Source of the DNA: Hymenobacter psoromatis
GTDB lineage: Bacteria > Bacteroidota > Bacteroidia > Cytophagales > Hymenobacteraceae
Length of the DNA: 64,000 bases
Direction of reading: 5' to 3'
NCBI GenBank assembly: GCA_001596155.1
Contig: CP014771.1
Coordinates: 4,216,001 to 4,280,000, forward strand
Shown here in pieces: positions 4,313 to 48,390 of this stretch (its first letter is position 1; every line of letters starts with the position of its first letter). A program made the position numbers and the translations under genes. The notes under the pieces were generated by a model. That model was not told the origin of the DNA, did not search any database, and saw only the letters and a list, made by a program, of their open reading frames with translations.

Positions 4313-4420
4313 CAAAAAAGGACGTGTCATGCTGAGCTTGTCGAAGCATCTCTACCGCGCCGTTCGAGTTTCGTTCGGTAGAGATGCTTCGACAAGCTCA
4401 GCATGACACGTCCTTTTTGT
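4313..4420. repeat. Long intergenic palindrome, family A, with flanking A/T runs
   Basis: The arms (about 4313-4358 and 4378-4420) carry GTCATGCTGAGCTTG, then TCGAAGCATCTC, in inverted copies. The outer ends are AAAAAA and TTTTT. It lies between the convergent CocE-type gene and prs, so it has the form of a two-way intrinsic terminator. Confidence 0.9.
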
Positions 4421-22052: not shown

Positions 22053-22189
22053 ACTTACCCAAAAGCCATCTGTCATTGCGAGCGAAGCGCGGCAATCGCA
22101 TCCGAACGACACCCACGCCAGTCGTTCCGCCATCGTTCTGGTGCGATTGCCGCGCTTCGCTCGCAGTGACAGATGGCTTTTGGGTAAGT
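22053..22189. repeat. Long intergenic palindrome, family B
   Basis: The arms 22053-22100 and 22142-22189 are 48 bases with one mismatch and contain GTCATTGCGAGCGAAGCGC and GGCAATCGCA. It shares its core with the GIY-YIG-flanking arms at 45641-46087. Confidence 0.9.
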
Positions 22190-22239
22190 AAAATATCTTT
22201 TAACAACGTGTTGTTCTACAGAGCTTAAAAAAGTATTGT

Positions 22240-30888: not shown

Positions 30889-31004
30889 AAATTACCAGAA
30901 CGTCATTCCGAGCTTGCCGAGGAATCTCGCTCGGGCCGTCCGGGCCTCGTTCAACGAACCGAGCGAGATTCCTCGGCAAGCTCGGAATGACGTTCTGGTA
31001 ATTT
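30889..31004. repeat. Long intergenic palindrome, family A' (ATTCC/GGAAT type)
   Basis: The arms of about 43 bases (30889-30933 and 30960-31004) are near-perfect inverted copies containing GTCATTCCGAGCTTGCCGAG and GAATCTCGC. It is closely related to the element at 53841-53935. Confidence 0.92.
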
Positions 31005-42548: not shown

Positions 42549-42651
42549 AAGAACGTCATGCTGAGCTTGCCGAAGCATCTCGCTCGCATCGTTGGAGTTC
42601 TTAGCCAACGATGCGAGCGAGATGCTTCGGCAAGCTCAGCATGACGTTCTT
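42549..42651. repeat. Perfect 47-base-arm palindrome, family A
   Basis: The arms 42549-42595 and 42605-42651 are identical inverted copies (AAGAACGTCATGCTGAGC at the outside, CGCATCGTTGG at the inside) with a 9-base loop. Perfect identity suggests a recent origin or ongoing repair between the arms. Confidence 0.95.
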
Positions 42652-45617: not shown

Positions 45618-45640
45618 ATCGCTTGTTATAGAAGACGCTT

Positions 45641-46087
45641 GTCATTGCGAGCTTGCGAAGCAATCGCACCAGAACGAGCCAATAGAACGACTACAATCCA
45701 TGCCTTTTGTCATTGCGAGTCCCGCAAAGCAATCGCACCCGAACGAAATCGCATGAATGCCTATTGCGTCTATATTCTCACCAATCCTTATCACACCGTG
45801 CTTTACGTCGGTGTGACAAATAACTTGGTGCGTCGGGTAAGCGAGCATAAAACTGGCGCAGTGGAAGGATTTACCAAGAAATACAATGTGAGTAAACTGG
45901 TTTATTTTGAAACGTCACCCAGCATCATGCAAGCCATTGAACGTGAAAAGCAGTTGAAAGCTGGCTCGCGGGCGAAAAAGCTGGCACTGATAGAAGAAAT
46001 GAATCCTGCATGGCGCGACTTACTAGAAGAATAAGCGGGCGGCGCGGGTATCGTTCGGGTGCGATTGCTTCGCAGGCTCGCAATGAC
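45641..46087. mobile_element. Candidate mobile element: GIY-YIG gene between inverted family B arms
   Basis: The left side has two direct copies of the family B arm (45641-45677 and 45709-45746). The right side has one inverted copy (46051-46087). Over 37 bases the first left copy differs from the right arm at two positions. The GIY-YIG gene (45753-46034) is the only content. The same arm without a gene forms the palindromes at 22053, 47206 and 48292, so this may be the autonomous form and those the empty derivatives. This is inferred from structure, and no target duplication has been verified. Confidence 0.5.
45753..46034 (+). CDS. Single-domain GIY-YIG endonuclease
   Basis: The 93-residue protein starts at ATG 45753 (MNAYCVYIL). 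An open frame reaches further upstream but only translates the repeat arms. The motif pair is present as VYI (6-8) and YVG (18-20), followed by a catalytic Arg in NNLVRR (27 or 28), His32, Glu63 in AIEREKQLK and Asn84. So it is expected to cut DNA with a metal ion. It belongs to the short UPF0213/YhbQ-like branch that is abundant in Bacteroidota. It lies 136 bases after tgt and 84 before lptF/G, flanked by inverted repeats that occur elsewhere in the window without the gene. Confidence 0.9.
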   Translation: MNAYCVYILTNPYHTVLYVGVTNNLVRRVSEHKTGAVEGFTKKYNVSKLVYFETSPSIMQAIEREKQLKAGSRAKKLALIEEMNPAWRDLLEE

Positions 46088-46117
46088 AGACGACTTTGTA
46101 AAGATAAAATTTGTTAA

Positions 46118-47205: not shown

Positions 47206-47324
47206 GTCATGGCGAGCGTAACGAAGTGGAGCGCGGCAATCTTTCCTGGTCGTTCGCTTCACTGAGGTGGTAATCCTGACGTGAAGGAAAGATTGCCGCG
47301 CTCCACTTCGTTGCACTCGCCATG
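47206..47324. repeat. Long intergenic palindrome, family B
   Basis: The arms 47206-47247 and 47285-47324 are inverted copies with a few mismatches (GTCATGGCGAGCGTAACG and its complement; CGCGGCAATCTTTCC). It lies in the co-directional gap between lptF/G and the EamA gene. Confidence 0.9.
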
Positions 47325-47337
47325 AAAAAATAGAATT

Positions 47338-48291: not shown

Positions 48292-48384
48292 TTTGTCATT
48301 GCGAGCCTGCGAAGCAATCGCACCCGCACGATAGCCGCACGTCGTCGTGCGGGTGCGATTGCTTCGCAGGCTCGCCATGACAAA
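48292..48384. repeat. Long intergenic palindrome, family B
   Basis: The 40-base arms 48292-48331 and 48345-48384 match with one mismatch and contain GTCATTGCGAGCCTGCGAAG and CAATCGCACC. It lies between the convergent EamA and ispE genes. The half-arm is almost identical to the GIY-YIG right arm. Confidence 0.93.
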
Positions 48385-48390
48385 CGGCGC

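Follow-up and report, generated by a model that had tools for sequence, protein, structure and literature searches.

Why should a gene for a small nuclease lie between the arms of a palindrome that, elsewhere in the same genome, occurs without any gene? The question is raised by a locus in the genome of Hymenobacter psoromatis (5.45 Mb), within a stretch of 64,000 nucleotides that was analysed as a whole and is referred to here as the window. The gene (45753–46034, plus strand) has 93 codons, an ATG start, and a GIY-YIG nuclease domain (PF01541), and its neighbours are tgt on one side and lptF/G on the other. A first-pass annotation of this DNA proposed that the gene is a possible autonomous form of a family of intergenic repeats, which its product may mobilize or maintain. 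The comparisons described below point to a partnership that extends well outside this genome. We think it probable, with some reserve, that certain small GIY-YIG nucleases with a single domain, forming one subfamily, serve the CGTC-tagged REP superfamily as its dedicated enzymes, in the way that RAYT proteins (HUH/Y1) serve GTAG REPs, and this judgement includes the mechanism proposed for it.

A small nuclease gene within a palindrome

The anatomy of the locus is as first described, with two left arms before the gene and one inverted right arm after it. The outer left arm (45640–45677, plus strand) has an ATTGC stem and defines the N type, the inner left arm (45708–45746, plus strand) is a gapped variant of the N arm, and the right arm (46051–46088, minus strand) is 89% complementary to the outer left arm over 46 nt. 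A longer, TTG-started frame of the gene opens at 45639, within the arm. The first-pass annotation placed the same arm in three gene-less palindromes, at 22053–22189, 47206–47324, and 48292–48384. This holds for the last of them (48293–48386), whose arm is 92% identical to the outer left arm of the nuclease gene and whose own two arms are 98% complementary; the palindrome at 22053–22190 is closed by a variant of the N arm (GAGCGAAGCGCGGCAATC), and that at 47206–47327 has a more diverged, N-related arm (GTCATGGCGAG..). Further closed palindromes in the window belong to another arm family, with an ATGCT stem (745–835, 4325–4408, and 42554–42646), and to a third, with an ATTCC stem (30901–30992).

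Across the genome an exact arm pattern gave 84 matches (43 forward, 41 reverse) and a looser pattern 137; as neither control gave any match (the exact pattern being read backward in its control), the arm repeats are not a product of chance. The one palindrome that was folded as a DNA single strand, at 48293–48386, is very stable (−53.5 kcal/mol, z −14.9), and single N arms fold weakly alone (z −1.2, −2.1, and −0.3). Rfam matches on the palindrome were to miRNA families only, below the gathering score, and were taken as chance. In 25 sampled closed N palindromes the hairpin stems are 29–59 nt apart, and the gene occupies the place of that spacer. Arm spacing in the closed N palindromes of this genome clusters at 29, 40–41, 51, and 59, in steps near one helical turn. 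Such steps would suit recognition of both arms on duplex DNA, and a few founding events could equally give them.

Another inverted repeat, GGACTTACGCAAA, matches the genome at 121 places when one mismatch is allowed (7 in the control). In 6 of the 25 sampled closed N palindromes its core is found in the outer flank; it encloses these palindromes and may have carried them. The outer ends of the palindrome at 22053–22190 resemble this repeat by eye. Inverted complementarity continues past the GTC tag into locus-specific flank for at least 10 bp in 10 of 50 palindromes, taken from the window, other loci of the genome, and relatives, compared with 1.8% of shuffled pairs; because part of this extension is family consensus and GGACTTACGCAAA repeat, it was set aside as proof of a fold-back repair footprint.

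The 93-residue protein matches PF01541 with 56 bits (E 5.2e-15), and its AlphaFold model is confident (pLDDT 91.6). Conserved Tyr, Arg, and Glu residues have catalytic roles in the GIY-YIG superfamily, and Y7, Y18, R28, and E65 are invariant among 14 aligned nucleases, so that the protein has both the domain and the conserved residues of the superfamily. The nearest solved fold to the model is UPF0213 protein BH0048 (1zg2); next come Slx1 and the N-terminal domain of UvrC, which belong to enzymes acting on branched or damaged DNA. Sequence and fold matches (1zg2, 1ywl) agree on a single-domain fold of the Slx1-like (UPF0213) branch. This branch is described in PMC1564403 as having no C-terminal Asn; N84 is invariant in the same 14 sequences and may or may not be the Asn meant there.

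The first-pass annotation would have taken armless GIY-YIG genes elsewhere in the genome as a refutation, and this did not come true. The source genome has four GIY-YIG genes, two short and two long; both short ones have arms on each side, and neither long one does (UvrC and a 499-codon frame).

Pairing of arm types with nuclease lineages

Arms were detected as GTCA followed by TNNN and, after a loop of 4–45, the reverse complement of TNNN, at most 300 bp from the matched part of a gene. Of 158 short GIY-YIG loci fetched, 152 were distinct and made up the family sample (147 belonging to the genus and 5 to a sister genus). They came from among the matches listed to about E 6e-13 plus the best of a further search; four loci were left out, two lying at contig ends and two having frames of 190 and 382 codons. 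The controls were 299 ORFs of at least 100 codons in six 64-kb stretches. Outward-tagged arms were present on the left at 104 loci, on the right at 122, on both sides at 90, and with the same stem on both sides at 86, compared with 23, 35, 3, and 1 of the control ORFs. Arms of opposite orientation were found on the left at 57 and on the right at 35 of the 152 loci (20 and 43 of the 299 controls), partly because whole palindromes adjoin the gene. At the 62 other loci the detector, which required GTCAT, missed an outward arm on at least one side, and at 16 of these it gave none; at 136 of the 152 it thus registered one or more. The arms start with GTCAT, before which there is almost always a C or T, and the tags of the counted arms point away from the gene. 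The commonest stem per locus was TGCT at 45 loci, TCCT at 33, TTGC (the N type, that of the window gene) at 24, TTCC at 11, and TGCA at 8, with TGTT (6), TGTC (4), TGCC (4), and TCTT (1) being rarer and 16 loci having none.

The pairing is also found in other phyla. The best 80 matches to the Hymenobacter profile, out of a longer list, included 78 with enough flank, and arms were present on both sides at 49 of these and with the same stem at 33, compared with 2 and 0 of 126 control ORFs in the same loci. Two of the 78 are Hymenobacter loci (L095 and L101), both with arms on both sides, and without them the count is 47 of 76. Species labels in this set are at risk, as many of the records are metagenome bins. 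For genes of this kind the pairing with arms exceeds chance by far, which was the test that the first-pass annotation had set. The idea that all GIY-YIG genes are partners of arms was rejected, as one subfamily stands out: arms on both sides were seen at 3 of the 29 best-scoring PF01541 loci across the phylum, and at 1 of the 26 among these whose score with the cross-phylum profile was below 90 bits.

The type of arm tracks the nuclease more closely than the host, and nuclease genes of one lineage tend to be enclosed by a pair of arms of the type proper to that lineage, with the tags outward (ATTGC, ATCCT, ATGCT, ATGCC, ATTCC, and others). On a quick nuclease tree with many open forks (152 rows, 136 of them labelled with an arm type, 98 columns), arm type changes 21 times, compared with a mean of 78.9 for shuffled labels (0 of 200 as low) and of 58.8 for labels shuffled within each genome (0 of 2000 as low). 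The N type forms a single clade of 24 rows and one unlabelled row (SH-aLRT 100), and 37 of the 40 genomes with two or more armed nucleases have different stem types. Rare stems are not clustered (TGTT, in 6 rows, and TGTC, in 4, need one change per row), and the TCCT part of the tree also contains five TGCT rows. The cross-phylum tree gave 37 changes, compared with 57.8 for shuffled labels (0 of 200 as low), with TTCT, TGCC, and TGCA not clustered beyond the shuffles. One group of 19 rows in it (support 83), of which 18 are TTGC, spans Cyanobacteria, Planctomycetota, Chloroflexota, Deltaproteobacteria, and Patescibacteria by record title. These observations bear on the alternative that small genes land by chance or at hot spots in intergenic palindromes and that the flanking arms are meaningless. 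Several palindrome families do occur at the same intergenic sites, but this account is contradicted by the counts of 90 of 152 loci and 3 of 299 controls, by the specificity for one subfamily, and by the coupling of arms to the tree, and we give it hardly any credence.

The number of arms per genome was compared across 101 genomes of the genus, which were treated as independent though they are not, with genomes 'without' a nuclease being those without a listed matching one. At least ten N arms were present in all 20 genomes with an N-clade nuclease (median 24) and in 21 of the 81 others (median 1, with 38 having none; p 6.7e-8). For ATCCT arms the median was 55 in the 31 genomes with a matching nuclease, 26 of which had at least ten, and 13.5 in the 70 without, 40 of which had at least ten (p 5e-4); their number was not predicted by the N nuclease (p 0.70). 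For ATTCC arms the corresponding medians were 29 (10 genomes, 8 with at least ten) and 2 (91 genomes, 29 with at least ten; p 6e-4). There are exceptions: up to 131 N arms were found in a genome without an N nuclease, and the source genome has 157 ATTCC arms, yet both of its short nucleases have arms of other types beside them. Arms without a matching nuclease would be explained if the enzyme had been lost once the repeats had spread.

Arms that persist in this way, and the sampled N palindromes that lie inside the abundant GGACTTACGCAAA repeat, would also fit palindromes that owe their movement to another agent (a RAYT, an insertion sequence, or the mover of the GGACTTACGCAAA repeat), with the nuclease gene merely resident. 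We find this doubtful, since arm type follows the nuclease even within genomes and since Y1 genes do not share the arrangement. Among the 30 best-scoring Y1 (IS200/RAYT-type) loci in the genus, one of which was too short, 0 of 29 had arms on both sides, and RAYT/Y1 proteins were rejected as the mobiliser of the arms.

Named species were checked in 16 of the 34 plasmid or chromid records that gave a match, at 17 places in all. Inverted arms lie on both sides of the gene in Azospirillum lipoferum (where it is between sufB and sufC), Shinella (two), Neorhizobium, Rhizobium CIAT894, and Neisseria gonorrhoeae, at one place in Sinorhizobium meliloti, where the right arm is without the GTCA tag, and, in CGTCACCCC or CGTCGCCCC forms without AT, in Sphingobium (two) and Novosphingobium aromaticivorans. 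Arm types differ between left and right in Planktothrix and Spirosoma, Photobacterium and Aeromonas have an arm on one side only, and no arms were found at the nuclease flanks in Rhizobium tumorigenes and Sinorhizobium K101 (300-codon frame). At the second S. meliloti place (L362, on pSymB), a second GIY-YIG gene is flanked by a 25-nt inverted repeat of another form, CCTCATTCCTGTG.. on one strand, which may be a CCTC-tagged form.

Other arrangements of GIY-YIG genes were noted in passing. In Planktothrix agardhii plasmid p1 (L368) the gene lies between an MmeI-type restriction gene and DISARM drmA. A gene of another subfamily (L401, G325:C1:1733881-1734727) is repeated three times in tandem, with units of about 317 bp; behind each copy comes the 5' portion of a tRNA-like sequence, and the array ends at an apparently whole one (the tRNA being read by eye); this array is possibly a tRNA-targeting GIY-YIG unit. 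Close-set GIY-YIG matches are also present in G260, G309, G341, and G285.

Turnover of palindromes and a proposed mechanism

The frequent adjacency of tgt and lptF/G that the first-pass annotation mentions is seen in the genus, where a tgt match lies at most 1500 bp upstream of lptF/G at 28 of 30 loci, the source locus included. The content of the site varies. Upstream of lptF/G (30 loci, 28 with tgt), a GIY-YIG gene was found at 5, a gene-less palindrome of another arm type at 5, and neither, as far as these searches show, at 18. One of these 18 (G014) has 14 bp between tgt and lptF/G, and in another (G005) a remnant joins the start of the left arm to sequence like the right flank. The gene is also at this site in G065, with an in-frame stop, and in G071, which brings the species seen with it to seven. 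A gene order fixed in relatives without arms, which would have counted against the first-pass proposal, is therefore not what is found, and the empty site that had been sought in relatives appears in some as nearly empty, scarred, or holding gene-less palindromes. Unrelated A+T-rich inverted repeats, AATGAGGAATGAAGAATT-like, were seen in the tgt–lptF/G regions of other Hymenobacter species (e.g. L209, L210, L212, and L214).

Gene-less palindromes of different families also occupy orthologous sites. For example, the site of the palindrome at 42554–42646 has an ATGCT palindrome in the source genome, G065, G040, and G071, and one of N type in G047 and G033. The arms of one unit change together, since both share the same altered tag in G040 (GTCCTTGCGAG) and in G065 (AAGCAAGC), and left and right loops are identical at 27 of 86 nuclease loci where 8.1 are expected. 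This likeness of the two arms would also be produced by a structure-selective enzyme that processes palindrome cruciforms, either keeping the arms alike or removing them, without spreading them, while its own arms regulate or terminate its transcript. The folds of Slx1 and the UvrC domain, next after UPF0213, are consistent with such an enzyme, as are the great stability of the one closed palindrome that was folded and the presence of the gene at one site in seven species. By itself, however, it does not explain why genomes with a given nuclease lineage have more arms of its own type, and we regard it as unlikely, though deserving of weight.

Within genomes, none of 89 pairs of nuclease copies from the loci fetched is at least 90% identical, and two are at least 80% identical, so the nuclease gene seems not to multiply itself. 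RAYT genes likewise seem not to do so. The proposal of an autonomous form therefore survives as a pairing of nuclease and repeats, and is not supported as a self-multiplying unit, given these identities and the shared site in seven species. A search for insertion junctions (167 comparisons of 30 closed palindromes with the syntenic stretches of nine genomes) gave no clean filled and empty junction and no target duplication; three comparisons were flagged as empty, all in diverged sequence, and hence no target site can be named.

GIY-YIG homing endonucleases are known, and with the differences between species at the tgt–lptF/G site they suggest that the enzyme might cut arm-free alleles and be copied in by repair. 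Homing enzymes do not, however, recognise their own mobile DNA, according to the accessible part of PMC1564403. Homing would also leave the scattered gene-less copies unexplained, and tblastn found a relative in 1 of 50,697 phage records; we consider it very improbable. A defence or phage gene was rejected as an identity on the same phage count, with no PADLOC match and two weak PHROG matches only.

Returning to the nuclease as partner of the repeats, its Slx1/UvrC-like fold, the stability of the closed palindrome, and the arm spacing lead us to propose recognition of an arm pair, nicking, and copying linked to repair. The enzyme would recognise the pair of arms, as a hairpin, as a cruciform, or as two arms on duplex DNA, and would nick near the GTC tag. 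Repair of the break could then copy or move the gene-less palindrome to new intergenic places, and the same repair may keep its two arms alike. Maintenance or mobilisation of the repeats by the nuclease, as first suggested, can accordingly be read in two parts: the matched pair is observed in the genus and in other phyla, as are, within the genus, the link to copy number and the turnover of palindromes, and recognition, cutting with its position, and mobilisation are what this scheme would add.

Comparison with known systems

The first-pass annotation knew of no described system of this kind. In one respect this needs correcting, as the arms agree with the CGTC-tagged REPs that Di Nocera, De Gregorio and Rocco described in 2013. 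According to that paper (PMC3733652), these repeats have a terminal CGTC, in many cases TGTC or CCTC, and stems of 8–9 bp that almost invariably start with complementary AT, with loops of 4–5; they have many copies, mostly paired in opposite orientation, and Bacteroidetes are among their five phyla. The arms described here share the C/TGTC tag at the outer end, the AT at the start of the stem (the Sphingobium and Novosphingobium arms being without it), and the many copies in largely opposite-orientation pairs. Alphaproteobacterial arms such as CGTCATCCCCGCGAAGGCGGGGATCCA fit the stem and loop sizes by eye. A. lipoferum, S. meliloti, N. aromaticivorans, and Neisseriae are named among the CGTC hosts in PMC3733652, and flanking arms were found in A. 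lipoferum, S. meliloti, and Neisseria. The units differ from CGTC REPs as described in that a GIY-YIG gene lies between them, the inverted repeats are longer, and the hairpin of the N arm is weak.

The repeats and the nuclease fold were thus already known, and their pairing appears to be new. A search of titles and abstract openings in the open-licence literature found no paper linking GIY-YIG genes to REPs or to bacterial palindromic repeats, and the main text of a 2025 REP survey, as far as accessible (PMC12306157), has neither 'transposase' nor 'nuclease'. In the words of PMC3733652, CGTC-tagged REPs "apparently lack a dedicated transposase". One of the two REP superfamilies, with reports ranging from Rickettsia and Neisseria to Bacteroidetes, was therefore left without an enzyme by its describers, and the matched nuclease is a candidate mobiliser for each repeat family, ready to purify and test. 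One search gave 4920 relatives, by match alone and flanks aside, and the proposal, if true, would point to what many genes known only by the annotation 'GIY-YIG nuclease family protein' may do. A broader reading, to which we give an even chance, is that this subfamily represents a new class of mobilising enzyme in many phyla, which would cut a structured, tagged palindrome and propagate CGTC REPs, including Neisseria dRS3-type and alphaproteobacterial repeats, in a manner that no known transposase uses. We know of no strand-transfer activity in GIY-YIG enzymes.

Among other systems, the Slx1-like GIY-YIG (UPF0213) proteins have the same single-domain fold, with no repeat partner mentioned in the accessible part of PMC1564403, which does ask whether further members of the family may be molecular parasites. 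Miniature inverted-repeat elements are likewise short, gene-less inverted-repeat units; here, unlike in those elements, the matching unit codes for a nuclease and not for a known transposase, and no target duplication was found in the 167 comparisons. The closest likeness is to RAYTs and REPINs, in which (in part from PMC3733652) an enzyme gene also lies between inverted repeats, the enzyme is of low and the repeat of high copy number, and enzyme lineage is matched to repeat type, as it is here with the exception of rare stem types. The differences are that the tag is GTAG there and C/TGTC here, and that RAYTs are HUH/Y1 transposases whereas the present enzyme has an unrelated GIY-YIG fold (PF01541). 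If the proposal is true, the design of a REP with its own enzyme arose twice, with unrelated enzymes.
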